Shown piece by piece: positions 5,444 to 46,508 of a stretch of 64,000 bases of DNA. Each line of letters opens with the position of its first letter. Position 1 is the first letter of the stretch. The notes beneath the pieces were generated by a model that was not told the origin of the DNA, searched no databases, and saw only the letters and a program-made list of their open reading frames with translations. The stretch comes from a virus: the IMG/VR virus record IMGVR_UViG_3300027759_000046, positions 62,001 to 126,000 of that record. One strand, 5' to 3'. The position numbers and the translations under genes are program-made.

Positions 5444-7234
5444 GTGAAACCAGCCATATTTACCTATTACAACAAAGCCGTCGAGTCAGTATTCTTTGAC
5501 AATATTGAATCCTTGATTAGAAATTCAGAACCGAATGCCTATTCAAAAATTATTATCTGTACAGAAGAAGAATTACCAAAGGCAATAATCTCTAAACTTA
5601 GGAGAGTTATGCCAATTGTAAGAACTTATCCAAATAGCCTATCTCAAAATTTATTAGATTTAGCGAAAGGCCCAATGTTTGTAAATCCTCTACTCTTGAG
5701 CGCATTTTCGCAATACGATCAAACTCTTACAGTATTTGATTCTTCAATATACGTAACCTCTGCTGTAACAAATTCAAATTTTCAAAACTGGTTCTATCAA
5801 TCACATCATGGCAAGATAAGTCATCAACTGTTTAAGATAACGCCGACTATCCAATTGTATCAGAGTGCGCGTGCATTTATGAGCTCAATGAAGCCAAGCG
5901 ATCCAGACAGCCTAAACGTATTTAGTTACTTTATTATAAACTGTCAATTACTGGCAACCAAGCATATTGTACCAGAAAAGTTAATTTTTTCAAATCCAAA
6001 ACCGGAAGATGTAATTAAATTGAATAGGCTCGTTGCAATTTCAACAATAAATCCAGTAGCCTCTCCGGAAAGGATTCGCGAAATCATAAAGACCCGTGCG
6101 GACCTATTGAGTTCACAAAAGCCTAGGCTTCTCTCAGCAATAATTTCAAAATTTTATAACTACATTGATCAACTGTCTTCGCCTGACGAGTTTGAAGATG
6201 ATGGCAAAACTTACATGCCTAGCACGCTAATCGTTGAAGTTCCGACAAATGATCCAACTTCTGCTGGCATTTCTCGAATGTTAAGGCTTGCAGTTGAACT
6301 ACCTCATTCAAATACAACAGCAGGCGGAATAACTGAGACTCTAAAACTTGCAAAGAAAATTCCAACTTCACCTCTAATCAGATTTCAAAGAATTACTGGA
6401 AGTTATCCTATCGACCTTGACCTACACTGGACAGTCGGTCTGCCGGATAACACTTTTCCAGAATGTGATGCCTGCATAACATATTCAGATAATCCATACC
6501 TAAATCAGCTAGTTAGTTTACCTCAAGTTGATAAAGTTATTCTGTACATGTTATCATACGGCATGGCAATCGATCGAGAACGCGCAAACGTTTTAAATCC
6601 AGACGTAATAGTCACATGTTCAACCAAAAAACTTGAAGAAGCAATTGCAAAAGAAGGAGTAAAAGTTCATAGAATCGGATTTGGTTTAGATATGGATCAC
6701 ATGTATGTCGACCCAAAAATTAAACGCAATAAGTATTTAGCTCTACTCTATCACCCATCATTGGCTAAACGATATGATTTAGGTGTAAAAATTGCAAACG
6801 CACTCTATTCAAACGGAACGATTGATGGAGTAATAACAGTCGGTTCATCAGTTAATTACGACATGCACAAGCATCCAATTGGACTCGTTAAACATTATCC
6901 GAATGCAAAACCAGCAGAGGTTAGAGCAGTTTTTAATCAAACTCAATGTTTTTTAATGCCATCAATTACTGAGGGTCTAAATCTTACACCAATTGAATCT
7001 ACTCTATGTGGATGCCCAGCAATTATTTGTGACGGCGCAATCAATGAAATATTTTATGAATCTCAAAACTGTAAAATTGCAAGAATTGATAATGAATCAC
7101 AAATGATTAATTTAGCAACTGATATTATTCAAAATTTCGATTTGTACTCTGAAAAATTCATGACCGATATGCAGGCAAGAGTTGCTGAAAATACTTGGGA
7201 AAATGTTGTTAAAAAATTAAATGAACTAATATAA
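5444..7234 (+). CDS. Glycosyltransferase, GT-B fold (group 1/GT4-like)
   Basis: The C-terminal half of this 596-residue protein has the GT-B signature: FLMPSITEGLNLTPIES has the EX7E motif (E510, E518) that binds the sugar nucleotide, followed by LCGCPAIICDG. The N-terminal half is a less conserved acceptor-side domain. The start is GTG at 5444 in catGTGAAACCAGCC; the overlapping ATG at 5442 meets a stop at once. It heads a plus-strand cassette of five genes with tight joints (the next ATG overlaps the stop as TAATG). The acceptor is unknown; host surface sugar, virion protein and modified DNA are all possible. Confidence 0.82.
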   Translation: MKPAIFTYYNKAVESVFFDNIESLIRNSEPNAYSKIIICTEEELPKAIISKLRRVMPIVRTYPNSLSQNLLDLAKGPMFVNPLLLSAFSQYDQTLTVFDSSIYVTSAVTNSNFQNWFYQSHHGKISHQLFKITPTIQLYQSARAFMSSMKPSDPDSLNVFSYFIINCQLLATKHIVPEKLIFSNPKPEDVIKLNRLVAISTINPVASPERIREIIKTRADLLSSQKPRLLSAIISKFYNYIDQLSSPDEFEDDGKTYMPSTLIVEVPTNDPTSAGISRMLRLAVELPHSNTTAGGITETLKLAKKIPTSPLIRFQRITGSYPIDLDLHWTVGLPDNTFPECDACITYSDNPYLNQLVSLPQVDKVILYMLSYGMAIDRERANVLNPDVIVTCSTKKLEEAIAKEGVKVHRIGFGLDMDHMYVDPKIKRNKYLALLYHPSLAKRYDLGVKIANALYSNGTIDGVITVGSSVNYDMHKHPIGLVKHYPNAKPAEVRAVFNQTQCFLMPSITEGLNLTPIESTLCGCPAIICDGAINEIFYESQNCKIARIDNESQMINLATDIIQNFDLYSEKFMTDMQARVAENTWENVVKKLNELI

Positions 7235-7989
7235 TGACCAACGTAATAATTATCCCAGTTCACAATCAAGTATTTCACCTAAAGGCTTGTATTGAAAGTA
7301 TTAAGAAACATACAAAGAATTATTCTCTAATAATAGTCGACGACGGCTCAACTGATTATGAGACGGTTAAATGGATCGATGATTTACCTGATAAGATATT
7401 GATTCGTCATACTAAAGCAATGGGATTCTCTAAAGCATGTAATGACGGAATCGACTATGCTATAAAATATCTAGACTTTAACATTTTATGTTTGCTAAAT
7501 AGCGATACCGTAATTGTTACGCCAGACTGGTTAGATAAAATGGAGACAGAATTCAGTAAATTTGATAAGCCTGGGGTTGCAAGTGTTGTTAGCGATAATG
7601 CAACAACTCAAACAATACACAATCCTGCGAAATATTTAACTCAAATCGATACTAAACCGACCTTTAAGTCCCAACTAATTCATGGATTCTGTTATTTCAT
7701 GAGCCGCGAAGTCATCTTAACTCTCGGCAGATTTGATGGAGACCTATTTCCACATTACGGCAGTGAAGACGATTATTCGTTAAAATGTATAAGAAACGGG
7801 TTCACAAATTTCGTAGTCGGCAGCATCTTTATTAAACACAATGCTTCGACTAGCTATTCAGCGGAACGCCGAGAAGCCTTAATTGCAAAAAGCGTGCCGG
7901 CTCTATTAACCAGATGGACTCGGCAGTACGTTAGCGAATGCATAAACAGAAGTCTTCACATTCAAAAAATGCTAAACGAAAATGTATGA
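7234..7989 (+). CDS. Glycosyltransferase family 2
   Basis: The 251 residues form a GT-A domain: VIIIPVHNQ at the N terminus, IIVDDGSTD near residue 35, LLNSDTVIV as the metal-binding DxD-type site near 90, and GSEDDYSLKCIRNG as the catalytic ED region near 180. This is a complete GT2 enzyme without membrane segments. It starts within the stop of the preceding gene and overlaps the next by 8 bases, so the cassette is translationally coupled. Confidence 0.88.
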   Translation: MTNVIIIPVHNQVFHLKACIESIKKHTKNYSLIIVDDGSTDYETVKWIDDLPDKILIRHTKAMGFSKACNDGIDYAIKYLDFNILCLLNSDTVIVTPDWLDKMETEFSKFDKPGVASVVSDNATTQTIHNPAKYLTQIDTKPTFKSQLIHGFCYFMSREVILTLGRFDGDLFPHYGSEDDYSLKCIRNGFTNFVVGSIFIKHNASTSYSAERREALIAKSVPALLTRWTRQYVSECINRSLHIQKMLNENV

Positions 7990-8635
7990 TATAAATCACA
8001 TATCCATGCAAGAATGGGCAGACCTAGTTAAAGAATATGCCAACTTTGAACCTCAATCAATCATGGATATTGGGGCAATGGATGGAGCGGATACTGAAAC
8101 TCTAGAATCAAATTTTAAAACAGGTAACGTTTACATAATTGAACCTCACCCAGTTCTCTATTCACGAATTTGCAAAAATCGGCCAGAGTTCAAGAGCTTT
8201 AATTTTGCAGCGTCCAACCAAACCTCTGAACTCGAATTCAATACTATCAATATTGAAAATTCAAACTTGGGGATCTCTTCATTATATGAAAGAGTTGACG
8301 ATTTAAGTTGGGCCTTGCCTAGTCAATTTGACAAGACCTCAGTAAAGTCAATGCGAATGGACGAATTTATGGAGTCTCAACAGATTGATACAATTGATCT
8401 ACTTAAAATAGATGTTGAAGGACACAGCTTTGAAGTATTAAAAGGATTTGGCGAACGTCTTAAATCAATCAAATGTATTCACATAGAAAATGAACATACT
8501 GAGGTCTGGAAAAATCAAAAACTATATCCAGAAGTAGAACCTATTCTGGTAAATAATGGATTCGTAATGCTCTCAATTAAAGTCGGATGGCCTCAAACTG
8601 ACTCAATCTGGATTCAAAAAAACTGTTTAAAATAA
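7982..8635 (+). CDS. FkbM-family SAM-dependent methyltransferase
   Basis: The 217-residue protein has a class I methyltransferase fold: SIMDIGAMDGADTE for the SAM loop, YIIEPHP after strand 2 and the FkbM hallmark LLKIDVEGHSFEVLKG near residue 140. FkbM enzymes usually O-methylate sugars or polyketides, which fits the glycosyltransferases on either side. A second FkbM-like gene lies at 40461-41315. Confidence 0.85.
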   Translation: MYDINHISMQEWADLVKEYANFEPQSIMDIGAMDGADTETLESNFKTGNVYIIEPHPVLYSRICKNRPEFKSFNFAASNQTSELEFNTINIENSNLGISSLYERVDDLSWALPSQFDKTSVKSMRMDEFMESQQIDTIDLLKIDVEGHSFEVLKGFGERLKSIKCIHIENEHTEVWKNQKLYPEVEPILVNNGFVMLSIKVGWPQTDSIWIQKNCLK

Positions 8636-8644
8636 TAATTTAAT

Positions 8645-9334
8645 ATGATTAACATGACCTACATTTACGATGAGTTTATGCACAAACTAAAAACTCAAGA
8701 AAATTTTTCTCTTGTGAGATACGGAGACGGCGAATGGGCTGTAGCTTTAAGAAAGGAGCCAACATATTCCATAATTTTAAGAAGGTTTGAAAAGGTAGAC
8801 GGCCTAATCAGATCAGGAGATACAATGCTTGACATTATAAAGTCTGGTCCCAAGTATTATTTTGGTCTTCAAAATCTTGCGCTAAGCCTTTGGCCTGAAG
8901 ATATCGAAAGCGCTATTCCAGATGGGGTCAATGTGATAAATGCAGATATGCTACACAGACTATCTGAAATGGGTTCTCTTGGAGACTTCTTTGATGTTTT
9001 AAAAACTCGAGAGCTTATCCTATTGGGGCCAGAATACCTTAAGAACCTAAATTTCTTAACCTTTGATCACGTTATTTCGCCTGATCCAAATTCTTGGGAT
9101 TATTGCGATGAGCTGCAGGCTCAAATTGAAGAAAAACTTGCAGGTAAAACTAATCCAGTAATTCTCTATTCGGCAAGCATTGCTGCTAAAATAATTATCG
9201 ACCGTATGTACAATAAGTATGGCGAAACGATAACTCAAATTGATACAGGTTCTCTATTGGATCCTTACGCTGGGGTCCATACTCGAGAATACCATAAAAC
9301 TGTATTGGAAAGACTTGCTTCACAGAAAAACTAA
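8645..9334 (+). CDS. GT-D-type glycosyltransferase (DUF1792-like)
   Basis: The 229-residue protein carries FSLVRYGDGEW near residue 20, the (S/V)RxGDGE motif of the GT-D glycosyltransferase fold, and the C-terminal LYSASIAAKIIIDRMY...TQIDTGSLLDPYAG. It is a paralogue of the minus-strand protein at 57664-58410, which shares both blocks (FSLIRLGDGDL, TQIDIGSALDPYAG). Assignment to the GT-D family is from motif memory. An ATG at 8654 is an alternative start. The next gene begins 1 base after the stop. Confidence 0.72.
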   Translation: MINMTYIYDEFMHKLKTQENFSLVRYGDGEWAVALRKEPTYSIILRRFEKVDGLIRSGDTMLDIIKSGPKYYFGLQNLALSLWPEDIESAIPDGVNVINADMLHRLSEMGSLGDFFDVLKTRELILLGPEYLKNLNFLTFDHVISPDPNSWDYCDELQAQIEEKLAGKTNPVILYSASIAAKIIIDRMYNKYGETITQIDTGSLLDPYAGVHTREYHKTVLERLASQKN

Positions 9335-9335
9335 G

Positions 9336-10163
9336 ATGAAATTAGCTGCAGGATATGTCGTATTTGACGGATTGGAGACTCTTAGGGCGTCCCTAGCGTC
9401 AGTCAGAAATCAGGTCAATATAATTATTGTCTCATACCAACGGGTTTCCTGGGGAGGAACTATGGCGAAACCTGAGCTGATCCCAACTCTCAATGAATTA
9501 AAAAAAGAAGGGCTAATTGATCATATTATTGAGTTCACGCAGTTTAGACCAAGTAATCTAAAAACGCCAGACTCTGTAATTCAGGCCAAATCATTTGAGC
9601 TCAATAAGAGACAGAGTTGCCTTGATCTCGCACGTAGTCTTGGAGCAACACATTATCTTTCAATGGATGCTGACGAATGCTATCGAGATTCTGAATTTGC
9701 ATGGGCAAAGGCTGAGATTGAGACTCACTCACTTGATGCAACTGCTCTACACTATATTAACTACGTTACTCCAACTCTGCACAGAGGTCATTCGCGCTGG
9801 AAAATTCCATTCATCTATCGAGTTACTCCAACTTGTAGACATCATACTCTACAGCAAATATTTTCAGGAGTTGATCCAACTCGAGGTATGATAGACGACT
9901 CTTATCGCAAGAGTCGAGTATTTGAAAGGGATATAATCTCAATGCACCACATGGAAATGGTTAGGCACGATATTGAGGCCAAGTACCATGCATCAAGCAG
10001 ATTCTTTCCAAATCGAGAAAACCTAAATATTTTAGCGAATGATGTGGTTGAGGCCCAAAGAACTGGGTCTCTTAAATTTACCGGGCCTCATCTTGGAGAT
10101 GACGATCCCAAAGTAAGTAAATCCTTAATTGAGTGTCCAAACGAATTTGGGATAGACTTTTAG
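9336..10163 (+). CDS. Probable glycosyltransferase, GT-A-like
   Basis: From the ATG at 9336, just after the previous stop, the protein has 275 residues and starts MKLAAGYVVFDGLETLRASL. It keeps the order of a GT-A enzyme: an N-terminal strand, IIIVSYQRVSWGG, then HYLSMDADECY as the DxD site near residue 110, and a histidine-rich SMHHMEMVRHD near the end. The frame is open upstream to 9240, but that lies inside the previous gene. It ends the cassette, and its stop overlaps the convergent spike gene by 4 bases. Confidence 0.7.
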   Translation: MKLAAGYVVFDGLETLRASLASVRNQVNIIIVSYQRVSWGGTMAKPELIPTLNELKKEGLIDHIIEFTQFRPSNLKTPDSVIQAKSFELNKRQSCLDLARSLGATHYLSMDADECYRDSEFAWAKAEIETHSLDATALHYINYVTPTLHRGHSRWKIPFIYRVTPTCRHHTLQQIFSGVDPTRGMIDDSYRKSRVFERDIISMHHMEMVRHDIEAKYHASSRFFPNRENLNILANDVVEAQRTGSLKFTGPHLGDDDPKVSKSLIECPNEFGIDF

Positions 10164-23208: not shown

Positions 23209-26160
23209 TTACTTTGTAAATATGTTGAATATATTATGATTCTGTGGGTCCTGCCACATTGGTCCACTGCGGCATTCAAGATGCTTTTTAAATTCTTTAA
23301 AGCCTGCATCGACTTTACAATAGACAATCTCAGATGAGTTTACGACTGCTAGTACTGAAAACTCATCAACTTTAGCGTAATATAAAATATGATGCCATCC
23401 TAAAAAGTTTATGAATTCCTGTTCGTTTCGGCTATTCTCAAAAAAGTCTTTAATTCCAGCAAGCAAGTCATCTTCATGGCCGCAACCCGTTTCCCAAATT
23501 CCTCCAGAAAAAATAGAGGCAAACCATCTCTCAAAGTCTTCAATAACTTGAGGTTCATTTGAAAATTCCTCTGAGATAAGATCAAAAAGAGGTAACCATG
23601 TTTGGTTGAGCCATATTCTATTAATTGTGAATAACCTAGCTCTTGGATCATTTTTTAAAATATCTTCACAAAACTCAACAATCTTTAAATTTTCGCCAAC
23701 GATTAACTTAAGTTCTTCAAGCTTTTTAATTATTACTGAGCGACCGTTGACAAAACCTGCTCTTGATGATATTAATCTGCCGCTGTTCCCCTTAACCTCA
23801 ATATTAACCGGGCCTGCAGCAATATCACCTTCGCCTGCTTTCTTTTTACCATCTTTAAACAATATTGAAATTAGCTCGCCCTTTCCCTTTCCTTGAGTAT
23901 TTCCAATTTTATTAGTTATCTGAAACCTTAGAATGGTCTTAAATATTTCGGGATTAACTCCAAAGTCCTGAGCCGTTAATTCTCCAGAAGACGATATGTT
24001 TGAAATATCGTAGCCTTTACCGCCCGCTATTGTTTCGTAGAAACTTTCAAGGTCAGCGGCTGATTCATTTAGAATATCACCACACTCTTGAGCAAAAGAT
24101 TCTGCATCGGTGCTTAAATATCCACGGTTAATCAATTCTTCCGCAATTTTCCCTAATGTGTCAGAAGATTCGTGCATAGACATCTCCTTTTTAAGTTTAG
24201 CTAAGATGCTAGAATATTTATCGGGTGAAGATTTTCTTAGTTTTTTTAAACTATCAAATTCTCTTTCTGACTCGTGATCATCGTCTGTCCGTGGAACTTC
24301 ATTTGCAAAATTTGCCTCAACTGCTTCGTTTAACTTAGGCTGTGCCAATTCGTTAATATCGCGATTCATATTGAAAAATTCTGAGTGAATTGCTTGAGGT
24401 GCAGCTGATTTAAAATTTTGATAATCTTCAGATCTTAACGAGTTCATAATCGAATCTTTAACTCCAGCAATTGGTAATTCAACTAGAGAAACGTCATTTC
24501 TAAAATTAAGATTTCGTGATCTCTTTTTAGCTAATTCCATTTGTAAAGCCAAGTCCTTGATTCGACTCTTTGTTCCAGATATAATAACTGGTTCAAAATC
24601 AGGTTTGATTGCTCTCAATAAGTTCTCAACCTCTCCGTCCTGTACCATTCGGTGGCCGGTGATAAAGCTTGGGTGTTGCGAAGTAACTTTGTCTAAACAG
24701 CCTTTAACGGTTTCTTGTTTAAAAGGTTTAGTCTTATTTACTGAACCGTCATGAATGCATACCATTAAACACGGATAGCCATTCATATCAAACAATTTCT
24801 GTGCAGATTTAAGATGACCTGGGTGAAAGGGTTGAAAATCTGAGATGATTAAGTTAACTCTTTTGGATTTACGTTCGTTATCTGGAACTTCTGCAAAGGT
24901 TTCAAAATAACCAAGATCTCGCTCTTCTCCAACAAATTCGCTGAATGTTGGAAAGTAATTCTCGTAAACAGCATCACCTAATAGGACATTACTAATCTTC
25001 TCAATTTGAGAAACCAGATTAGCTCGCATTGGCTTGGTGAAGAATGTTGAACTAACTCGAACCGTTTTCTTTCTAAACATATTTAAGAAGACTCGATAAA
25101 TCTCCTTGTAGTTAGGATTCGACTCAATAATCTGAGTAACCTTTTTGTCGTGAATAAGGTCGAAATTTACGTTAAAGTCTTCTCTTCTCAGGAATTCTGG
25201 AATTTGAATATCTAAGTCAATGTATTTTTCGCCGAACTCAGAAATGAATTCTAAATAGATGTGATTGACTAGCGAAATATATTTTTGCTCGTATGAATCT
25301 CCTTTAAGTGGAATTTCTCGCAATTCGCTAAGTGAATATCTCTCAATAAAATTCATTAAGTCGATAACAATAATCCAAATATAGTCGTCCGATTTCTTTT
25401 GAACTCGGTCTTGTGCTTTTTGTTTTGCATTCGCCTGAAATACTGGATCTACTAATTTAGCCAAGAAGACTGAATCTTCTGAGTTATTGTTGGGATCGTA
25501 AAAACGAAATACCAAACCTTCAATATCTTTGTCTAGAGTATCCCTTAGGAACGTTGTTCCAAGCTCAGGATTTAGAACTGACACAATATACTTCGTGAAT
25601 GATGTTGTCTTAAATTTATCAACCAATTCTTCGAAAGGCGTGTAGATGAATTCATGCATTTTCTCTTTTTGATCTGGAGAAAGCTTGCCTTGAAATACGA
25701 TCGGTGGACGTTCAATATTTAAAATATCAGCCCATTTGTCAAGAGTATCTTTATCTTGAATAGTCTCCGACATCTCGCCCTTTTCATCAAGGATATGAAT
25801 GTAGCTTAAGATTAAGCCATTTTTAGGAAGTCTATCGTATGCAATAGTTTGTGCTTTTGGGCTAGTAAACCACTCCATTCCGAAATGGTAGTTATCTGGT
25901 ACTTTGCTTACGGTATCAGGCCCAAGGCTCTCAAAGTGTCTAATAGCCGGCTCAAAGTAACGGCTGAGTACTCTATCGATGTACGTAATCTCTGCGTTCC
26001 TCTTAAAGAAGCGGAACTTACCCGTGCTAGGGTCTTTTTGGGCGCCAAAGAAGGCCCCATCCATTTTCTCATTTACAATTACTGTTTTGTTTAAAAGGCC
26101 TTCTAAGAATTCCTTTCCGCGTTTATCATAAACGTCTCTTAAGTGTGATAGTCCTGGCAT
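23209..26160 (-). CDS. Three-domain protein: RNA/DNA ligase-like, NMNAT-like and PD-(D/E)XK-like
   Basis: In this 983-residue protein, residues 1-240 match the covalent nucleotidyltransferase fold of RNA ligases: EKMDG with K32 as adenylated lysine (motif I), HFGMEWF (motif III), EGLVFRF (motif IV, E214) and FLAKLVD (motif V). Residues 435-580 form an HxGH nucleotidylyltransferase: SDFQPFHPGH (446-449) and IISGTKSR, as in NMNAT/cytidylyltransferases. Residues 750-800 have GEGDI...NIEVKGNSGR, the D-ExK order of a PD-(D/E)XK nuclease (D779, E788, K790). The last 180 residues are unassigned. Genes upstream encode a kinase and a HAD phosphatase, so repair of cut RNA/DNA or NAD-linked chemistry is plausible. 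Confidence 0.75.
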   Translation of the reverse strand: MPGLSHLRDVYDKRGKEFLEGLLNKTVIVNEKMDGAFFGAQKDPSTGKFRFFKRNAEITYIDRVLSRYFEPAIRHFESLGPDTVSKVPDNYHFGMEWFTSPKAQTIAYDRLPKNGLILSYIHILDEKGEMSETIQDKDTLDKWADILNIERPPIVFQGKLSPDQKEKMHEFIYTPFEELVDKFKTTSFTKYIVSVLNPELGTTFLRDTLDKDIEGLVFRFYDPNNNSEDSVFLAKLVDPVFQANAKQKAQDRVQKKSDDYIWIIVIDLMNFIERYSLSELREIPLKGDSYEQKYISLVNHIYLEFISEFGEKYIDLDIQIPEFLRREDFNVNFDLIHDKKVTQIIESNPNYKEIYRVFLNMFRKKTVRVSSTFFTKPMRANLVSQIEKISNVLLGDAVYENYFPTFSEFVGEERDLGYFETFAEVPDNERKSKRVNLIISDFQPFHPGHLKSAQKLFDMNGYPCLMVCIHDGSVNKTKPFKQETVKGCLDKVTSQHPSFITGHRMVQDGEVENLLRAIKPDFEPVIISGTKSRIKDLALQMELAKKRSRNLNFRNDVSLVELPIAGVKDSIMNSLRSEDYQNFKSAAPQAIHSEFFNMNRDINELAQPKLNEAVEANFANEVPRTDDDHESEREFDSLKKLRKSSPDKYSSILAKLKKEMSMHESSDTLGKIAEELINRGYLSTDAESFAQECGDILNESAADLESFYETIAGGKGYDISNISSSGELTAQDFGVNPEIFKTILRFQITNKIGNTQGKGKGELISILFKDGKKKAGEGDIAAGPVNIEVKGNSGRLISSRAGFVNGRSVIIKKLEELKLIVGENLKIVEFCEDILKNDPRARLFTINRIWLNQTWLPLFDLISEEFSNEPQVIEDFERWFASIFSGGIWETGCGHEDDLLAGIKDFFENSRNEQEFINFLGWHHILYYAKVDEFSVLAVVNSSEIVYCKVDAGFKEFKKHLECRSGPMWQDPQNHNIFNIFTK

Positions 26161-26165
26161 AGTAT

Positions 26166-26744
26166 TTAGTCTAATGAACCGTAATCGCCTCTACTCATTG
26201 CTGCTGCAAATTCTCTGTCGGAGTGTGAATCCTTAGTGATATTGAAGCGAACGGCATCGGCTGCGAGTTCTTGATTTTGTTTTAAAAATTGAATAAGTGC
26301 AAGTGTATCGATATCTTGGTATTCGCCAGATCCTCCAAATTCTACAAGTTGTTTCTCTAATCCTCTTACTTCTGGAATTTCAAAAAGCCAAATTCTGAAA
26401 GTGACGATTTCTCCATGAGACGCTGATCTTTCTGACATCTCGGTTAGATGGTTTACTATTTGCTCGAGTGCATCAGCTTGGTCAAGAGGTCTTTCCCAAA
26501 CTTTCCATTCTTTACCTTCACGATTTATATTTACTGAAGTAGACGTGCCTGACCCAGTCGGTACTGAAATTGACATTAGATTTGGGCATAATTCCATTAT
26601 CTCAGCTAGATCACCTGCAAAATGTTCAATCGTTTCGCCACGTAATCCGTGATCAGTTGCCAGGCCCTTGTTCTTTAGCCAGTTCAGGCGCTCTCGTCTA
26701 GCGGATTCAGATATGAAATCGGTAAAGCCTTTAAGATTTTTCAT
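26166..26744 (-). CDS. Late protein with strong T4-like capsid-targeting N terminus
   Basis: The 192-residue protein starts MKNLKGFTDFISESARRERL; ISE matches the gp21 site type. Residues 19-29 are RLNWLKNKGLA, related to the RLKxLGLA motif. The rest is acidic alpha/beta, without a known domain. It is placed between the kinase and ligase-like genes but has its own late promoter at 26761-26769. Confidence 0.68.
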   Translation of the reverse strand: MKNLKGFTDFISESARRERLNWLKNKGLATDHGLRGETIEHFAGDLAEIMELCPNLMSISVPTGSGTSTSVNINREGKEWKVWERPLDQADALEQIVNHLTEMSERSASHGEIVTFRIWLFEIPEVRGLEKQLVEFGGSGEYQDIDTLALIQFLKQNQELAADAVRFNITKDSHSDREFAAAMSRGDYGSLD

Positions 26745-26760
26745 GCAAGATACTTTCTTG

Positions 26761-26769
26761 TTATTTATT
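26761..26769 (-). promoter_or_regulatory. Late promoter overlapping the upstream stop codon
   Basis: AATAAATAAC on the minus strand includes the last codons (AAT AAA TAA) of the kinase gene and lies 17 bases before the ATG at 26744. Confidence 0.65.
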
Positions 26770-27369
26770 AGGCTCGATGCCTAAAAGTCGATAGCATTCA
26801 TTATTAAATAGGGTCGCAGATAATTCATCAAAATGATTAAACACAAGGCTTAGACCATTTTCGGACTCAGAATTTGAAAGCCATGATCTTCCGATATCTA
26901 ATAGATGTGCCATTTGAGACTGTTCTTCTTGCGTTGAATGAGCTCCGTCCCAAGTATCTTTAGTACGACCAGAATCTCCAGTTTGACCTGCGACTGATAC
27001 GACTAGAGTTTTGCAGTTTTTAAATAGATCAGAACTTAGCAGCGAGAAATATTCTAACTCAGCTTTAGTTTTAGTTAATCGACCACGTAGAATTGCCCAA
27101 GTGTATGCTGAAACAATTGCTCTGTCAAATACCCAGATTTTATCCTTGTATTCTGGACGCTGATTCATTTCCATAATGGTCATGATGTTGCCAAGACTAA
27201 AATAGTGTAGGCTTGGACTCTTTTCGTCTGACACCATGTCAAGAGTCTTAACGTGATTTGCGAAATAGAATTTATAATACTCTAATCTTGGATCATTACA
27301 GGTCTCTAGGAAATTGTTAATTAAGAATGTTTTGCCCGAATGTCTTGGGCCTTCGATGAATAATATCAT
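26761..27369 (-). CDS. P-loop kinase, thymidylate/nucleotide kinase-like
   Basis: The 202-residue protein has a Walker A loop GPRHSGKT at residues 7-14, FDRAIVSAYTWAI as the DR-type base-binding segment near 83, and a lid-like region GRTKDTWDG. This is the layout of dNMP kinases and also of polynucleotide-kinase-like proteins. It is coupled to the HAD phosphatase by overlap. Substrate unknown. Confidence 0.65.
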   Translation of the reverse strand: MILFIEGPRHSGKTFLINNFLETCNDPRLEYYKFYFANHVKTLDMVSDEKSPSLHYFSLGNIMTIMEMNQRPEYKDKIWVFDRAIVSAYTWAILRGRLTKTKAELEYFSLLSSDLFKNCKTLVVSVAGQTGDSGRTKDTWDGAHSTQEEQSQMAHLLDIGRSWLSNSESENGLSLVFNHFDELSATLFNNECYRLLGIEPNK

Positions 27370-27896
27370 ATTAGTTTTAATCTTTCTGAGTTACCAAATT
27401 CTTCAAGGGACCGTGCTGTATCCCAATCGATTGTAATTATTTTACTCTTATCTACGAAAATAAAGTCAATATCAATATTAATCCCTGCATCTAGGAACCA
27501 TGCCGTGTATTTAATGATCTCCCAAAGAGAGTCTTCGTATATCGTAATTGAGGTTGCTTCGTGCTCGCGAATTAAGTCTATCGCAATTTCAGCCTTATCT
27601 CCTTCTCTGCCGAGGAAAAAGGTCTTTTCAAATCGAATTTGATGATCTGCCAATAATTCAATAACTCTAGGCTGACATGCCTTAACTCTATGGGTTATTA
27701 GATAGTTTAGACAGTCGTCCTTGGTTCGATCTATCGTATTTTTAATACCCCGAATGTTGAATTTTTGATCTAGTGATTCTGGCGAATCAAACCATTCGTA
27801 GGGCTCTTTACCTTTAGCTTCACTGCATGTGTAACCGGGTACCCTAAATAGGGTTTCGTCAAAATCAAAGATATTAATGTGAGTGCTATTTTTCAT
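27366..27896 (-). CDS. HAD-superfamily phosphatase
   Basis: The 176-residue protein has INIFDFDETLFR (catalytic DxD), LITHR (motif II threonine) and IYEDSLWEI (acidic motif IV). Together with the kinase downstream it could act as a split polynucleotide kinase-phosphatase, with the ligase-like protein further on. Small HAD proteins of this kind also act on nucleotides, so the role remains open. Confidence 0.72.
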   Translation of the reverse strand: MKNSTHINIFDFDETLFRVPGYTCSEAKGKEPYEWFDSPESLDQKFNIRGIKNTIDRTKDDCLNYLITHRVKACQPRVIELLADHQIRFEKTFFLGREGDKAEIAIDLIREHEATSITIYEDSLWEIIKYTAWFLDAGINIDIDFIFVDKSKIITIDWDTARSLEEFGNSERLKLI

Positions 27897-37819: not shown

Positions 37820-38920
37820 ATGGAGTCAACAATCTTTACGATTGACGCATACTTATCAAATCAAGAAAGAGCCGATGTTTGTCAGAATTTAATTCAACAA
37901 ATTCGTAAGCTCTACCCAACACATAAGATCCTACTTATAAACAAGTATCACAGTGCTTGGGGTCTTGATGCACAAGTTGATCATTATTACTATTACGGTG
38001 AAGGCTTCATGGTAGGCTATCCACCTGAGCGTATCTTATCCTCTGGTAAATATGAGATGCCGTATACTTATGTCAAGACTCATTACGGCACCTTTGAAAA
38101 TTGGTTTCCACTAGTTAATGTAACTGACCACGTCGCCGGTATATTTAATAGTTTTATTATCTCAGCCAGACTTGCTAAAATGTTGGGCTTTGATAAAATT
38201 GTCAAAATTGAATATGATACTATTTTTGACGAAACCGAATTCATAAATCTACAATCAGACATTGCTTGTTTCGAAGATTACTTGTTCTACGGAACTCGCA
38301 AAGAAGGCGAATGGGCCCAACCTCATCAATACTTAGTAGACGTTCACATTATTGGATATTCAGCAAAGCTCTTTGATTCTTATGGGCTTGTTAAAAACGA
38401 TGATGATTATTGGAATCTATGCGAGCGTATCAATTACTATGGCAAATGGATTGAATACATCATACCTGCCGTAGTTGAAGAGCGAAAGGCCTTAACTCCA
38501 GTAATTGGTACTGCAATTCCAGGTAAATTTAATACTCTATTTGAACACACTCAGTTTGATGTAATTAATTCTCCAAGTGAGTGGTCTAATGTTTGGAAGC
38601 ACGTTCCAAAATTATGTAAAGCGGCAAACTCAATCGGCCCTATTGAAAATTTACTTGTAATATTCTATTGGAACAATAATGAATCTGGTGTAATCAAGAC
38701 AAGATGTGTAGTGCAAGACGTAGATACTGACAAGGTAATCTATGAAAAGGAAATTGACCTATTAGCTAAGGCAAATTGGCTATTTGATTCAATTAATCTA
38801 ATTAGACCAGTTAAGGTTACTACATGGACTACGACCGGCGACGAAACTTTTACGCAAACTCAAGTAATAGAGCTAAGCGACTTGCAAAATCTCGCACCAA
38901 GATTTTTATTCAATGACTAG
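37820..38920 (+). CDS. Probable glycosyltransferase
   Basis: The 366-residue protein shows a GT-A-like N-terminal half with KILLINKY and FDKIVKIEYDTIFDE, a DxD-type site near residue 135. The C-terminal quarter is a beta domain (VIFYWNNNESGVIKTRCVVQ). It starts a second sugar cassette placed between portal and gp25. Exact family not recognised. Confidence 0.6.
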   Translation: MESTIFTIDAYLSNQERADVCQNLIQQIRKLYPTHKILLINKYHSAWGLDAQVDHYYYYGEGFMVGYPPERILSSGKYEMPYTYVKTHYGTFENWFPLVNVTDHVAGIFNSFIISARLAKMLGFDKIVKIEYDTIFDETEFINLQSDIACFEDYLFYGTRKEGEWAQPHQYLVDVHIIGYSAKLFDSYGLVKNDDDYWNLCERINYYGKWIEYIIPAVVEERKALTPVIGTAIPGKFNTLFEHTQFDVINSPSEWSNVWKHVPKLCKAANSIGPIENLLVIFYWNNNESGVIKTRCVVQDVDTDKVIYEKEIDLLAKANWLFDSINLIRPVKVTTWTTTGDETFTQTQVIELSDLQNLAPRFLFND

Positions 38921-39368
38921 ACCATACATAATATCACATAGAGGTAATCTAAGCGGCCGAATTCCAGAAAGAGAAAACACGCTAGACTATATTGACGAAG
39001 CGATCGCAGAAGGTTTCGATGTTGAAATCGACCTATGGTTCCATGATAGTAAATTCTTCTTGGGTCATGATGGCCCTGAAACAGAAGTTCAGATGCAGCA
39101 ATTGATTGATAGATCCTTTAATTTATGGGTTCACGCAAAAAATCTAGATGTCGTAACTTATCTGCTTCAAACTGAACTTCATTGGTTCTGGCATGATAAG
39201 GACACCATGACTCTAACTAGCGAAGGAATTCCATGGGCTCAACCTGGTCAATTTGTACCAAACGGAATAACCGTTGAGTTTGAAATCATAAATATTCCAT
39301 CATACGCACTAGGGGTATGTACTGATAATCCAATTGACTACAAAAATACTATAAAACATGAAGATTAA
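38913..39368 (+). CDS. Glycerophosphodiester phosphodiesterase-like protein
   Basis: The 151 residues begin IISHRGN...ENTLDYIDEAIAEGFDVEIDLWFHDSKFFLGHD, split here by dots, which is the HRG, ExD and HD arrangement of GDPD metal and catalytic residues. It is shorter than usual GDPD enzymes (about 240), so part of the barrel is missing. A small phage branch of the family with lipid or teichoic-type phosphodiester substrates is possible. It overlaps both neighbours. Confidence 0.7.
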   Translation: MTRPYIISHRGNLSGRIPERENTLDYIDEAIAEGFDVEIDLWFHDSKFFLGHDGPETEVQMQQLIDRSFNLWVHAKNLDVVTYLLQTELHWFWHDKDTMTLTSEGIPWAQPGQFVPNGITVEFEIINIPSYALGVCTDNPIDYKNTIKHED

Positions 39369-40464
39369 TATCCTAATTCCAATGGCAGGTCTTGGTACCA
39401 GATTTAAAAACGAGGGATTCGACCTACCCAAGCCTCTAATCGAAGTCAATGGCAAAACTCTAATTGAACATTCAGTTAGCACACTAGGCATTGAAGGCCA
39501 ATACATATTCATTACTCGTCAATACGATGACCAGACTCACAATGCGCTATTATCGGCTAAGCTAAAACAACTGTATCCGACATCAGTTGAAATTACCTTA
39601 TCTGAACCGACTAGGGGATCAGTTGAGACCTGTTTAGCCGCTGCTAAATTGATCAATACAACAGATCCATTAATCATCACTAACTGTGATCAGATCACAG
39701 ACTGGGACGCAGCAGAGTTTTTGGAATTCGTTTCTCAAAGGTCAATCGCAGGAGCAATCGTTACCTACACTTCAAGCAATCCAAAGAATAGTTTTGCAGT
39801 AGTTGAATCCGGTCGAGTCGTTGAAGTTGTTGAGAAAAATCCAGTAACTGATATTGCTCTAATTGGTCTACACTATTGGAAACATGGAGAAGACTTTGTC
39901 AGAACCGCAAATGAACTAATGAAATCATTTGAAGATAACGGTCGACCTGAGTGCTACATTTCCGAGACATATAATTACCTTATTCAAGAGGGTCGATTAA
40001 TCAAGAACTTTCATATTGATGAAAACCAGTATATTTCATTGGGTACTCCATACGATCTAACAATTTACCAAGGAAAGGTTAAGGAATTTTATACGGATAA
40101 ACCTAAAACACTCTTTTGCGATATTGACGGTACTCTACTAAAGCATGTACATAAATTTAGCGAGCTTATTGACACTGTTCCTAAATTGCTCGATGGAGTT
40201 AGAGAAAAAATTAATCAATGGGATTCTCAAGGCCACAAGATAATCTTGGTTACTGCACGTAAGGAATCAGCTCGTGAAATGACGGAAAAACATCTTAAAG
40301 ATTTGGGACTCTGTTGGGATCATCTAATCATGGGCGTAACAAGCGGTAATCGAATTCTAATAAACGATAAACTAAATAAAACAAATCCGGATCGAGCACA
40401 AGCAGTTAATGTTATAACTAACTCAGGCTTTGGCACAATCGACTGGGAAACATACGGACTATGA
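39358..40464 (+). CDS. Sugar nucleotidyltransferase fused to HAD phosphatase
   Basis: In this 368-residue protein, residues 1-230 form a nucleotidyltransferase with IPMAGLGTRF...PKPLIEVNGKTLI (signature GxGxRF and PKPL) and NCDQITDWD. Residues 240-368 form a HAD domain with TLFCDIDGTLL and VTARKESA. Such fusions activate a sugar phosphate and trim a phosphate in capsule synthesis. It is coupled to its neighbours by short overlaps. Confidence 0.82.
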   Translation: MKINILIPMAGLGTRFKNEGFDLPKPLIEVNGKTLIEHSVSTLGIEGQYIFITRQYDDQTHNALLSAKLKQLYPTSVEITLSEPTRGSVETCLAAAKLINTTDPLIITNCDQITDWDAAEFLEFVSQRSIAGAIVTYTSSNPKNSFAVVESGRVVEVVEKNPVTDIALIGLHYWKHGEDFVRTANELMKSFEDNGRPECYISETYNYLIQEGRLIKNFHIDENQYISLGTPYDLTIYQGKVKEFYTDKPKTLFCDIDGTLLKHVHKFSELIDTVPKLLDGVREKINQWDSQGHKIILVTARKESAREMTEKHLKDLGLCWDHLIMGVTSGNRILINDKLNKTNPDRAQAVNVITNSGFGTIDWETYGL

Positions 40465-41315
40465 AATTACCATTTATATTTACAGAAGACAAACATTTTT
40501 GGGAGGTTAAAAGCACACTTCGCGGAAAAATTGGTGAACTACTTAACATATTTCCAGAAAAAGAGTTACCTTTAAGAATAGACGTAGCTAGTTCAATCAC
40601 TGGCGAAGTTATGTATACCATGCAAGCTACCGAACACAGTTGGTTTGAAAAATACGACTTTTATTTTCAAGATATATTTGTCTATACTGCAAGCGACCAG
40701 CTTGTGTGGGAACAACGCTGGGATATACTTAAAGATCCAGCATATAGTCTCTTTTATCTCTTAAACTGTTTCAAAGATACTCGCGGTATTGTTATAGGAG
40801 CACATGACGGAAGATACGGAGAGTGGGTAACTTTAATAAAAGACAAAAGGCATAAAATTTTACTAGTTGAAGCTTCACAAGAGCAATTTGATTCATTGCA
40901 AAAGGGATATAATAAAAATACAAGCGTCACTCTTATGAAAAAATTGGTCACTACTGACGGTAAAACGGTGCCATTTTTTGAAGGCGGCAATGGATATGGT
41001 AATAGTGTCTATCGAGTGCATCTTGAAAATTATCTAAACGGCCAAGAAATCAGAGAAACTTTGACGGACTCAATTAGTATAGTAGACTTAATTGAAAACT
41101 TTTCAACTGAATTAGATTGGATTCATATTGATACTGAGGGATATGATGCAAAATTAATTCTTGCTCTTAAGGAAAGACGTGATCTACTACCTCGCCTAAT
41201 TGTTTTTGAAGACATTCACATACCTCTCGAAGAAAAACACGAATTGGAAAATTTCCTAGTTATTGAAGGCTACTCAATGCATTCATACGACGGTAATACT
41301 TTTTGCATAAGATGA
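40461..41315 (+). CDS. FkbM-like methyltransferase
   Basis: The 284-residue protein has an N-terminal beta extension of about 100 residues, then GIVIGAHDGRYGEWV (SAM loop), LLVEAS, and LDWIHIDTEGYDAKLI, the FkbM DxEG motif. It overlaps the preceding gene by 4 bases. Sugar O-methylation is likely. Confidence 0.78.
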   Translation: MKLPFIFTEDKHFWEVKSTLRGKIGELLNIFPEKELPLRIDVASSITGEVMYTMQATEHSWFEKYDFYFQDIFVYTASDQLVWEQRWDILKDPAYSLFYLLNCFKDTRGIVIGAHDGRYGEWVTLIKDKRHKILLVEASQEQFDSLQKGYNKNTSVTLMKKLVTTDGKTVPFFEGGNGYGNSVYRVHLENYLNGQEIRETLTDSISIVDLIENFSTELDWIHIDTEGYDAKLILALKERRDLLPRLIVFEDIHIPLEEKHELENFLVIEGYSMHSYDGNTFCIR

Positions 41316-41641
41316 TAGTAAATAGAATTGAAAACATGAAAGGCGGTTGGTTCGTTGGAAACTTTGAACCTAGTTGCCATAAGACTCCAAATTTTGAAGT
41401 CTCTTATAAAGTCCACGCTCAGAACGAGAACTGGCCAACTCACTATCATACTGAGATAACTGAAATAAATTTACTTGTTAGAGGAACCATGATTTTACAG
41501 GGCAAGACTCTGATTGCTGGTGATATTTTTACTCTGGAACCCTATGAGATTGCAGATCCAATTTTTACAACTGAATGCGAAATCGTCTGTGTCAAAACTG
41601 GATCAGTAAATGATAAAATATGCGTAATCAATGCAAACTAA
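41312..41641 (+). CDS. Cupin-fold protein
   Basis: The ATG at 41312 overlaps the upstream stop (ATGA), giving 109 residues; an in-frame TTG at 41303 is less likely. WPTHYHTEITEINLLVRGTM carries the HxH...E cupin metal motif 1. Members act as sugar isomerases or epimerases or as sensors. It sits inside the sugar cassette. Confidence 0.72.
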   Translation: MIVNRIENMKGGWFVGNFEPSCHKTPNFEVSYKVHAQNENWPTHYHTEITEINLLVRGTMILQGKTLIAGDIFTLEPYEIADPIFTTECEIVCVKTGSVNDKICVINAN

Positions 41642-42527
41642 AATAACCGTAATAGGCGGAGCTGGATTCATCGGATCACATCTTGTATCACTTCTGCTAG
41701 CAAATAATTATCAAGTAATAGTAATAGATGATCTTTCTACAGGATCACTGAGCAATCTTAAAAATGATCTAGCTAACCCTAACCTTTCGTGCTATAAACT
41801 TGATGTTAGTAAATCCGCTATTGCTCTAGCCTCTTTGATCGAAGGCTCATCTCACGTCTTTCACCTTGCTGCCAAGACCTCAGTTGAGGAATCCATGGCC
41901 AGCCCAGTGGAGTACTATACCTCAAATCTAATAAGCACAGCGGTTGTACTTGAGGCAATGAAGCGAGCTGATATCAAACACCTAATCTTTAGTTCAACCA
42001 GTGCAGTGTATGGAGATACTCAAACATTTCCAACTCACGAATACTGCGAACCGTATCCAATGTCTCCGTATGCCCTAAGTAAATTAATGGCCGAGAAATT
42101 ATGCGAACACTATACAACAATTTCAACCGTTTGTCTACGGTACTTTAACGTATATGGAGATCGACCAAACTTAACCGGTTCATATAAACCAGTGATGTCT
42201 GTGTTTCTAGAAAAGGCTAGATCTGGTGAACCGTTGCCCATCATAAATGGAGGTGCTCAGTCTAGAGACTTTATTGCAGTAGAAGACGTTGCTTTAGCAA
42301 ACTTTGCGGCCATGAAAATAGAGAAAGGCCATCATATCTTTAATGTCGGTACAGGCTTAGACATAAGCGTTAAGGAGATTGCTGATAAAATCTCAGAGAA
42401 TCAAATTGATGCAGGCAGTAGGATTGAACCGGCTAGATCTCTTGCAGATATCACTAAAATACAGGTAGAGTTAGGATGGAATCCTGTGCACAAATTCGAT
42501 GAGTGGATTAGTCCTCGTATATCGTAG
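41631..42527 (+). CDS. NAD-dependent nucleotide-sugar epimerase/dehydratase (GalE-like)
   Basis: The 298-residue SDR protein has the NAD loop GGAGFIGSH, DDLSTGS, the active-site pair in YPMSPYALSKLMAE (YxxxK) and RYFNVYGDRP. It fits UDP-glucose 4-epimerase and relatives. It ends the cassette and overlaps the convergent gp25 gene by 20 bases. Confidence 0.9.
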   Translation: MQTKITVIGGAGFIGSHLVSLLLANNYQVIVIDDLSTGSLSNLKNDLANPNLSCYKLDVSKSAIALASLIEGSSHVFHLAAKTSVEESMASPVEYYTSNLISTAVVLEAMKRADIKHLIFSSTSAVYGDTQTFPTHEYCEPYPMSPYALSKLMAEKLCEHYTTISTVCLRYFNVYGDRPNLTGSYKPVMSVFLEKARSGEPLPIINGGAQSRDFIAVEDVALANFAAMKIEKGHHIFNVGTGLDISVKEIADKISENQIDAGSRIEPARSLADITKIQVELGWNPVHKFDEWISPRIS

Positions 42528-44034: not shown

Positions 44035-45438
44035 TTATTTATTAAGCTTATTGTTTTCCGCCGATTGATTGAACTTCGCGGTCTCAGGTTCTTCTTTACA
44101 AAAGTCGTCAAACGTTTTAACGGCACGACCTCCAGGATTAGAACCATATCGATCAGCCATAGGATTAGTCTTTAAATCTAATCTCGAATACGGTTGACTT
44201 GTTGTCCATTGAGCAGGTAGACCTCCAACTGGCACATTTACGTCAGTTGGCATTATGTTCTGATCAATTGATTGGTTAAATGAATCAGCCGGCACAGCGA
44301 ATGTACCGTTTTCTTCAACTTGACCGCTTTTAACAATGGCCCATATCTTTTCTTTATCTACTCCATCCGGTAATCCCTTAGCAAAGCTTTCAAAATCATC
44401 TTCTGCGATGAATTGTCGCATTAGCGTACCGGAAACTCCATCAGAATCTCCTTCTTCTTGACCAGCTCCTTTAATAAATTCCGGTCGAACTGTTTCAATT
44501 CGTTGTAATTGCTTTATTCCACCCAACCATTTTTCCATAGCCGCAAATCGCTTCATGTCAGCTGGTAAAGCGTATAAATTTATCTTATTATTCGGTGCAT
44601 CTTGTGTTTTACCAAGGTCTTCAACCCATTCGTATGCGGATCTTACTGGTGTAACCTCAGATAGGTGAATTTGAATATTTGAGTCTTTGCCAAAATATAA
44701 TTCCAAGATAGAGACGGCCATTTCGCCAGTAACTCCGCCTTCTGGTTTTGGCGAAACGAATACATGAAATTCGTCGTTCTCTGCCGCATACTGTTTAATC
44801 ATATCGTAATGACCTGTATGAGGCGGTTTAAATTTACCAGTAAATATCCCAATCTCTTTTAATTCAAGTTTAGGTAAGTGATCTGCTGTAACTCTGTGAG
44901 TGTTTACCGTAATAGGTAATTCTTTTTCAAGCTCTTTTGCAAGAGTCAAATTATTAATATCATCATCGAAGAATTTAAAATCAGTGTAACCCATTTCGTA
45001 AAGTCTTCTAAAAGCTTGCTGTTTCTTTTCGGCAACCGATCCGTGAAATCCTTCAGCTGGATCGTTTACTGCAATTACGAATTTAGGATGAATATCGATT
45101 CCGTTATCTAGAAAGAATTCTCTAATCATTGCCCCTTTATTTCTTGCAGTAACAATACCGACCGCCGTTGAATTTTCGTAAGTATCTTTAAGAATCGTTA
45201 AGATATCCTCAACTAGTTTACCTGCTTTCAAGATCTGAGGATCTTCGAATTGACTATAATTAACTTCGTGATGTGGCTTATGCTCATATTCATTGAACTC
45301 TTGTGGAGTCAGGTGAAATACTTCGCCAGTCTTAGAATCTTTCACAGCGATCCTTGCATTAGTTACAACTAATGTATCGTCTAGGTCAAATATTGTAATT
45401 GATTCGCCACTAAAGGCCATTTCATTAAGTCTTTTCAC
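44035..45438 (-). CDS. HAD phosphatase fused to NMNAT-like nucleotidyltransferase
   Basis: I choose GTG at 45438, 5 bases after the upstream stop, over an ATG at 45501 inside the previous gene. The 467-residue protein begins VKRLNEMAF, with a possible LNE processing site. Residues 14-170 are a HAD domain (ITIFDLDDTLVV, VTARN, FFDDDINN). From about 195 there is a nucleotidyltransferase: GIFTGKFKPPHTGH (HTGH 207-210), FVSPKPEGG and the later SGTLMR, as in NMNAT. The last 90 residues are unassigned. NAD salvage, nucleotide or cofactor editing is possible. Confidence 0.78.
   Translation of the reverse strand: MKRLNEMAFSGESITIFDLDDTLVVTNARIAVKDSKTGEVFHLTPQEFNEYEHKPHHEVNYSQFEDPQILKAGKLVEDILTILKDTYENSTAVGIVTARNKGAMIREFFLDNGIDIHPKFVIAVNDPAEGFHGSVAEKKQQAFRRLYEMGYTDFKFFDDDINNLTLAKELEKELPITVNTHRVTADHLPKLELKEIGIFTGKFKPPHTGHYDMIKQYAAENDEFHVFVSPKPEGGVTGEMAVSILELYFGKDSNIQIHLSEVTPVRSAYEWVEDLGKTQDAPNNKINLYALPADMKRFAAMEKWLGGIKQLQRIETVRPEFIKGAGQEEGDSDGVSGTLMRQFIAEDDFESFAKGLPDGVDKEKIWAIVKSGQVEENGTFAVPADSFNQSIDQNIMPTDVNVPVGGLPAQWTTSQPYSRLDLKTNPMADRYGSNPGGRAVKTFDDFCKEEPETAKFNQSAENNKLNK
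44036..44044 (-). promoter_or_regulatory. Late promoter overlapping the upstream stop codon
   Basis: AATAAATAATAA on the minus strand contains the TAA stop (44035-44037) of the HAD/NMNAT-like gene and precedes the ATG at 44015. Confidence 0.6.
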
Positions 45439-45443
45439 TAATA

Positions 45444-46508
45444 TTATACCTTTATTTTTTGAGAAGCGGTCATCATGCACTCCATTAAGTACTGGTGACA
45501 TTCATTTAAGTAAGATTCGTAGTTCTGAGTCTCGTCTGGTGTCATATCGTGTTTGTGAGCTTCATGAATAAGAACTTCTTCACAAATTCTCTTGATCGCC
45601 TGTTTTGCGCTATCTGATAAGCCTGGCACGTAACTTTCTGGCATTGCTGACCAACACTCATTTAAGAATTGATCGAATGAACCGGATACTCGACCTTCTG
45701 CGAGTTTTTGGTCGTATGCATGAAACGGCACTGATGCGCCTGGATGTATAGTATTGATTGTGTAGCCATGCTCTCTGCTAGTGTATCTGTCCCAGCTAAT
45801 ACCTGTAACATCGTCTAGTGGAATAATTTCACCATTGTCTGCGGTAATTTCTCCAGTCCTTAGATCTAACTGATTAGTTGGATTTGATACCTTATATTGT
45901 TCGCGATACGCATTGAACGTAATCGGTTTCTTTGGACCGTCTTCCCAGTCCTTAATTAGATGAGAGAACACACGGTTATAGTAATTAGGGTCATTACGTT
46001 TCTCTCGGTCAGTCTGCATTGGCGTTTTATTGTAAATTGAATGACTTGGTGCACCGCTTGCTGAGTCAACTTCAGTTGCCTCAATTGAATTGTCCTCAAT
46101 GCTCTCAATCTCCTCGTCTCCACCGAATTTGCTAACTTCTACCTGAATTCGGTATTCAACTCCTTCATGTTCGCCAACTAACTCCGCGTAACCCATACCT
46201 TCGTCCCATTCAGTATACTCAGTGTCTAAATCAAAATCAACAATAGCCTCTTCTCCCCAAACTGTTAGAATTTTTATGAAAGTTTCGCTGTCCGTGATTC
46301 TACGCACTTTGTAACCAGCTGCTTGAATTTCAGCCAGGTCCTCTGGCTTATTACCCATGATTTTGATAACACCAGGTTTACCGGGTTCAGCTAAACCTAG
46401 TCCTTTAAGCCTTTTAAAATTGTCTTGATGTGATTTTGGATTGGCTCCCATGGAGGTAGCCTCTTTATCCATGAATTGAGGAAGTCTTCTTTTGCCGAAT
46501 TTGCCCAT
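45444..46508 (-). CDS. Late protein with RLKGLGLA motif
   Basis: The 354-residue protein has RLKGLGLA at 33-40, then a small alpha/beta domain, an acidic middle, and near the C terminus two tag-like strings, FDQFLNEC and YESYLNEC. No known domain. It has a perfect late promoter core 26 bases upstream. It may be packed with or process together with the tagged proteins. Confidence 0.6.
   Translation of the reverse strand: MGKFGKRRLPQFMDKEATSMGANPKSHQDNFKRLKGLGLAEPGKPGVIKIMGNKPEDLAEIQAAGYKVRRITDSETFIKILTVWGEEAIVDFDLDTEYTEWDEGMGYAELVGEHEGVEYRIQVEVSKFGGDEEIESIEDNSIEATEVDSASGAPSHSIYNKTPMQTDREKRNDPNYYNRVFSHLIKDWEDGPKKPITFNAYREQYKVSNPTNQLDLRTGEITADNGEIIPLDDVTGISWDRYTSREHGYTINTIHPGASVPFHAYDQKLAEGRVSGSFDQFLNECWSAMPESYVPGLSDSAKQAIKRICEEVLIHEAHKHDMTPDETQNYESYLNECHQYLMECMMTASQKIKV

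Follow-up and report, generated by a model that had tools for sequence, protein, structure and literature searches.

A fusion of RNA-ligase-like and NMNAT-like domains with a divergent C-terminal module in T4-related jumbo phages: a possible conflict protein

Introduction

What might a phage gain from one long protein in which an RNA-ligase-like domain, an NMNAT-like domain and a part with nuclease-like residues follow one another? The question is raised by the ORF at 23209..26160 of the window, by which we mean the whole stretch of 64,000 nucleotides analysed here (positions 62,001 to 126,000 of IMG/VR virus record IMGVR_UViG_3300027759_000046). An earlier note, made from the letters alone, had read this ORF as three enzyme folds in one protein and suggested that it could serve counter-defence by rebuilding NAD or by repairing cut tRNA or DNA. 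The analysis presented here led us to the reading, to which we give about an even chance, that T4-related jumbo phages use the fusion as a conflict protein of several domains, in which an RNA-repair platform carries an exchangeable, probably nucleolytic tip.

Architecture and distribution of the fusion gene

The virus record measures 253 kb. The ORF lies on its minus strand, starts with ATG, and is complete, encoding 983 aa. Its span was exactly as first described, and all the residues quoted there were present (EKMDG with K32, HPGH at 446-449, ISGTKSR at 527-533, D779, E788 and K790). The plus-strand frame at 23209-26160 was rejected, as it contains many stops. The observation is genuine, and an artefact is excluded. 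An AlphaFold2 model (44 sequences, mean pLDDT 79.8) was used together with alignments and fold searches to divide the protein into the following parts.

23209..26160, minus strand: whole ORF, with ligase-like domain, helical domain, NMNAT-like domain and C-terminal module (ORF call, AlphaFold2 model)
25411..26160, minus strand: RNA-ligase-like nucleotidyltransferase domain, aa 1-250 (PF09414; Foldseek, T4 Rnl2)
24976..25389, minus strand: conserved all-helical domain, aa 258-395 (alignment, AlphaFold2 model)
24343..24870, minus strand: NMNAT-like (HIGH superfamily) domain, aa 431-606 (Foldseek; family profile)
23212..24342, minus strand: C-terminal module, aa 607-983 (start approximate), a divergence island between near-identical flanks (pairwise identity, dS)

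Of the three enzyme folds originally claimed, the ligase-like and NMNAT-like ones were confirmed, and the fold searches led to T4 Rnl2 and to archaeal NMNAT, respectively; the PD-(D/E)XK fold found no support in Pfam, PHROG or PDB, and the model of the C-terminal module matched no solved structure. The domain order is indeed unusual, as it matches no Pfam or PHROG family, and relatives in the phage collections occur only in uncultured huge phages. We did not find the domain combination or its jumbo-phage family described in the literature; the search, with subscription papers outside its coverage, returned no paper on a ligase-like/NMNAT-like/C-terminal-module combination.

A profile scan revealed 413 relatives in IMG/VR, of which 80 were examined; the motif alignment holds 63 family members. 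Most relatives are 600-680 aa long and consist of the ligase-like and NMNAT-like domains without the C-terminal module. No relative was detected among cultivated phages at the sensitivity used, and the only match in prokaryote genomes was a contig of 254 kb, probably itself phage, from a Bacteroidetes MAG, on account of which the hosts of these T4-related jumbo phages are probably Bacteroidota. T4-type head genes are present in the window, namely a prohead protease matching PF03420 and a capsid-like ORF (731-2410, named by reading).

The RNA-ligase-like domain and its neighbourhood

26056..26070, minus strand: motif I, EKMDG (K32), with the lysine kept in 52/63 family members (alignment)

The assignment of a ligase-like fold around EKMDG was upheld by three lines of evidence. 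PF09414 (RNA_ligase) matched aa 26-236 in the Pfam scan of the query (29.6 bits, E 9.1e-7, cut-off 27) and scored 33.6 bits for the fusion protein in a genome-wide search; PHROG_548 RNA ligase matched the query at 4.9e-7; and Foldseek aligned the model with T4 Rnl2 (2hvq, E 3.5e-7, prob 1.00), with fungal Trl1 ligases as further matches. When the ligase profile was run against PDB sequences it gave 0 matches, and the likeness to T4 Rnl2 came from the fold search.

The active site of T4 Rnl2 is lined by K35, R55, E99, F119, K225 and K227, and adenylyl transfer, whether forward or reverse, requires K227 (PMC3149579). The query contains K32, D34, G35, R54, E96, E214 and K235, and its motif I/Ia aligns with a canonical ligase of the same genome. 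At the position of the second motif-V lysine, assigned by sequence and strand position, stands V237, and this position is aliphatic in 63/63 aligned members. We did not take the loss of one motif-V lysine to mean that the ligase is dead, because another ligase of this genome, canonical in appearance (FKAISNKF), likewise has a single lysine in the K-x-K positions; the loss is a caution only. From its residues, the predicted ligase site appears nearly complete, and ligation by the fusion protein is possible but uncertain. The motif I lysine itself was lost in 11/63 family members. Several lineages lack the nucleophile: LR756500 has ENLDG, three phage genomes of 635-735 kb have EDVQG or EDIQG, and there are others. 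The ligase fold therefore outlives the reaction in part of the family, and the helical domain persists even in megaphage relatives with a dead ligase site. Two more RNA ligases above the Pfam cut-off, both canonical-looking, are found in the same genome (G000 127693-128772 and 131326-132835); one adjoins a PNK-like ORF, and they make up a separate RNA-repair set.

The fusion gene of the query clade is the last of a close run with these genes upstream.

27366..27896, minus strand: HAD phosphatase; orthologues match HAD_SAK_1 (Swiss Army Knife RNA repair) (Pfam)
26761..27369, minus strand: P-loop kinase-like ORF, with weak thymidylate-kinase resemblance in an orthologue (profile scan)
26166..26744, minus strand: upstream ORF, 192 aa, with N-terminal capsid-targeting-like tag MKNLKGFTDFISES, ending 5 bases before the fusion-gene start (ORF call, motif)

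HAD_SAK_1 was matched by 4/8 HAD orthologues (best 1.4e-9). In other clades, the ORF directly upstream carries a Pol-beta-like GS...GDIDLG motif or is a second KxDG ligase-like ORF; both were called by motif only, and neither had a library match. In L053, L060, L069 and L081, the Pol-beta-like motif GS..K...SGD(I/L)D(L/I)G occurs in a tagged ORF positioned at the ligase/NMNAT gene or immediately upstream of it. In a distant clade, a relative adjoins replication genes. We saw no immunity gene beside the fusion gene; what follows it is a conserved ferritin-like ORF, which is present also where the module is absent. Taken as a whole, the neighbourhood fits RNA repair more than NAD metabolism, and jumbo phages are known to counter defences that cut RNA by means of RNA ligases, HAD phosphatases and nucleotidyltransferases (PMC7824862). 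Elsewhere in the window, clusters of glycosyltransferase, sugar-nucleotide and methyltransferase-like ORFs were recognised by reading at 5444-10163 and 38913-42527.

These data could be explained by a working RNA-repair enzyme, in which the ligase domain would seal RNA (tRNA) cut by host nucleases, the HAD phosphatase and the kinase would feed in, and the NMNAT-like and C-terminal parts would merely aid binding or end trimming. The retention of K32, R54, E96, E214 and K235 and the alignment of motif I/Ia with the canonical ligase speak for it, but the valine at the second motif-V position and the need for the corresponding K227 in T4 Rnl2 (PMC3149579) count against it, as do the several relatives that keep the domain with a dead site. 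The HAD_SAK_1 neighbour and the RNA-repair-like neighbours of other clades also fit, yet two other RNA ligases already serve this genome, and the polymorphic module would be left unexplained. We regard this explanation as unlikely, if still a serious candidate.

The NMNAT-like domain

24814..24825, minus strand: HPGH (aa 446-449), retained across the query clade (alignment)
24562..24582, minus strand: ISGTKSR (aa 527-533), at the G-x-D-R element of relatives, not an NMNAT signature (alignment)
24445..24462, minus strand: VKDSIM (aa 567-572), the real SGTxVR column, with the arginine lost (alignment)

The NMNAT-like model resembled MthNMNAT (1m8f; TM 0.72, rmsd 3.4, Foldseek), and the family profile matched the solved NMNAT 1f9a (MJ0541) at 4.4e-7; the query's own Pfam NMNAT match was sub-threshold, and relatives exceeded the cut-off. 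The fold and HPGH were thus correctly recognised from the letters, but ISGTKSR had been misplaced. It was rejected as an NMNAT signature, for the aligned relatives show a clear SGTEVR further along: L053, L060 and L069 have the series GRFQPFHxGH ... GAGxDR ... SGTxVR, and the query reads SDFQPFHPGH ... SGTKSR ... VKDSIM. ISGTKSR also varies among close relatives (IAASKNR, IAANKSR). SKEH replaces HxGH in the other clade that carries the module (964 aa; L014 is among its members). Among sequences with letters in the alignment, the first histidine of HxGH was kept in 32/58 and lost in 26/58, and the SGTxVR arginine was kept in only 23/57.

NAMPT/NadV (PF04095) had no match in the 253-kb record, which may be incomplete; a NadV partner is not strictly required for an NMN adenylyltransferase. 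Based on the motif losses and the absence of PF04095, NAD synthesis by the query protein is unlikely. The NAD-rebuilding role proposed in the earlier note is therefore not sustained, given the loss of the ISSTxxR-type arginine in the query clade, SKEH in the sister clade and no PF04095 match in the record. A NAD-restoring counter-defence enzyme would agree with the supported NMNAT fold, with HPGH in the query clade and with the rebuilding of NAD by other phages (PMC9503650, PMC12774641); with the SGTxVR arginine absent, a sister clade lacking HxGH and no NadV/NAMPT detected in the record, we consider it highly improbable. The site appears partly decayed, and the domain would most likely bind an adenine nucleotide or be structural rather than make NAD. 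A second NMNAT-like protein is encoded at 44035-45501 of the window (minus strand), with an HAD domain, an HTGH nucleotidyltransferase, an intact VSGTLMR and a tag-like motif, VKTFDDFCKEE, close to its C-terminus.

The C-terminal module

23779..23886, minus strand: module core, GxGE (E762), GD (D779) and IExK (E788, K790) (alignment)

In the AlphaFold2 model, the module is joined to the rest of the protein through a disordered linker. E762, D779, E788 and K790 are invariant in 13/13 sequences that retain the module, at ~20% identity between clades, and the few positions fixed across the two clades include G759, G761, E762, G778, D779, I787, E788 and K790. The conserved-site check in relatives thus gave two outcomes, with the ligase and NMNAT sites often decayed and the module quartet fully conserved. 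A separate model of the module (12 sequences, pLDDT 83.7, pTM 0.78) placed D779 and ExK on consecutive strands, in a strand order compatible with a PD-(D/E)XK core. Foldseek found no match among solved structures at E<1 (best E 4), and Pfam, PHROG and PDB sequence searches gave none; the viral BFVD models matched at E<0.001 were uncharacterised phage proteins only (1e-6 and 7.6e-6). In the proposed PD-(D/E)XK assignment, the residues D779/E788/K790 were confirmed, joined by E762, and the fold lacks a Pfam, PHROG or PDB match, so that the label is a motif call. The module is probably a nuclease of unproven fold family; with no solved-structure, Pfam or PHROG match, it may not be a nuclease.

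Comparison of near-identical phages showed where the gene diverges. Between the window and L001, DNA identity was 0.87-0.98 as far as aa 606, fell to 0.51-0.73 between aa 617 and ~960, and was back at 0.97 just past the stop, and the same pattern was obtained for L003 and L005. Protein identity in both close pairs was 0.98 for the N-part and 0.55 for the module. Among the window, L001 and L002, the three modules are equally far apart (0.52-0.55), although the N-parts, at 0.98, 0.91 and 0.91, are not. Synonymous divergence was also raised, dS being higher in the module (0.45-0.73 versus 0.17-0.20, L003/L005), which implies that faster amino-acid change alone is insufficient and that exchange with a divergent pool explains the module. 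The junction of L005 (NEAVEASFANE) resembles that of the window clade (NEAVEANFANE), unlike that of its sister L003, as expected if recombination had occurred there. Sequences with the module formed one group (100/99) among the labelled rows of a tree built on aa 1-390, and the module-less L004 and L013 were nested beside the window clade. This pattern fits allele exchange of the kind known for effector tips; the divergence with raised dS could also reflect exchange without conflict. In L050 (6001-8854), the fusion gene of one 964-type relative is split into three frames, by assembly error or decay.

The presence or absence of the module among sisters (L004, L013) and the exchange at one junction might also arise if the module were a selfish nuclease of the homing type, carried in frame by a conserved gene. 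We think this very unlikely, however, as no homing family was matched, no orphan copies were seen, and the module alleles are more diverged than their flanks, where recent homing would bring alleles closer. Searches of phage records (tblastn) and IMG/VR for the module elsewhere returned only members of the same gene, no orphan cassettes were found in the record, and its profile did not match that of the nuclease-like ORF at 34931. A UvsW-like helicase gene occurs in two pieces in L004 (35-2857), and also in L026, L029, L041, L051 and L063, possibly owing to introns; in L004, the pieces surround an ORF resembling a homing endonuclease.

Capsid-targeting-like tags

24925..24948, minus strand: FSEFVGEE (aa 405-412) in a disordered linker, with a speculative resemblance to the genome's N-terminal tag-like motif (alignment, model)

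Across the whole record, 23 ORFs open with the motif F/Y-x-x-F/Y/W-[ILV]-x-E (for example at 17519, 18763, 26166 and 30524 of the window), and in the window 7 such starts were observed against 0.27 expected. The motif resembles the T4 capsid-targeting sequence, and the 23 tagged ORFs form a candidate set of internal head proteins. The internal proteins of T4 are diverse defence proteins with only the targeting sequence in common (PMC3012670). The PF03420 prohead-protease ORF (window 2429-4411, minus strand) contains eight 14-residue repeats of the type YxxYLAENVxKxI, which share the pattern [FY]xx[FYW][ILV]xE with the tagged ORF starts; the scaffold repeats may have a protease or binding site in common with the cargo tags.

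In the linker of the fusion protein, F406 and F409 are nearly invariant; the full motif with E is confined to the query clade, and other clades retain just FxxF. The fusion protein might accordingly be packaged in the capsid and injected like the T4 internal proteins, with the linker FxxF as an internal capsid-targeting or protease site. The enrichment of the motif at ORF starts, the T4-type prohead protease and the near-invariant phenylalanines would suit this explanation, but no N-terminal tag occurs in the family, the strict motif is limited to one clade, and a distant clade adjoins replication genes; we consider packaging quite unlikely. It is not exclusive of the conflict-protein explanation.

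Discussion

We return to the preferred explanation, a conflict protein with an exchangeable tip. We observed directly the ligase-like and NMNAT-like folds, the state of their motifs, a cassette-like pattern of divergence and neighbours of the RNA-repair type; every biochemical activity and the conflict role are what we infer from them. The conserved platform would comprise the RNA-ligase-like, helical and NMNAT-like domains; it would bind RNA ends or adenine nucleotides and bring the protein to damaged RNA or nucleotide-marked ends. On its disordered linker, the tip with the E...D...ExK set, most likely a nuclease, would cut host, defence or competitor nucleic acid, with a variable target. The module diverges and swaps among otherwise near-identical phages, as one would expect if an effector tip had to follow a changing target. 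A counter-defence role is plausible in view of the polymorphic C-terminus and the RNA-repair neighbourhood. A more specific proposal, which we make tentatively and with some doubt, is that the fusion is a phage counterpart of polymorphic toxins, in which jumbo phages swap a nuclease tip of an undescribed family on an RNA-repair-derived platform (ligase-like domain and decayed NMNAT-like sensor) against changing host defences or competing phages.

The family is a widespread one in jumbo phages, in which RNA-repair and NAD-synthesis folds are retained while active sites decay, and it warns that an NMNAT-like fold alone is no basis for inferring NAD rebuilding. Divergence islands often mark contact points of conflict, and the C-terminal module is therefore a concrete target in the search for a new phage nuclease or anti-defence activity.

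Several known systems invite comparison. With T4 RNA ligase 2 (Rnl2; PF09414), the query shares the N-terminal fold, motifs I, Ia, III and IV and one motif-V lysine; it differs in the valine for the second lysine, in a IIIa of YIHI, in its fusion to NMNAT-like and C-terminal modules, and in its many relatives with dead predicted sites. The archaeal NMNATs of the HIGH superfamily (1f9a, 1m8f) and phage NadM and NadR share the Rossmann-type fold and the HxGH position with the query, which lacks a Nudix or kinase partner domain, the ISSTxxR arginine and a detected NadV partner. As with the Swiss Army Knife RNA-repair proteins (HAD_SAK_1, PF10307), an HAD phosphatase gene lies in the same operon-like run, but here HAD is a separate gene and the kinase assignment is weak. 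The module shares with PD-(D/E)XK nucleases the E...D...ExK pattern before and within predicted strands, whereas it has a large helical part and no family or fold match. Its predicted fold recurs in A0A6J5L5I7 and A0A6J7WGY6 (E 1e-6 and 7.6e-6), uncharacterised proteins of uncultured Caudovirales phages which, at 388 and 556 aa, are too short for the whole fusion. Polyvalent phage proteins (PMC5512222) and polymorphic-toxin-like effectors differ from the query, which has no portal or MuF link and no immunity gene; what they share with it is the joining of several enzyme-like domains and a variable C-terminal tip on a conserved N-part.
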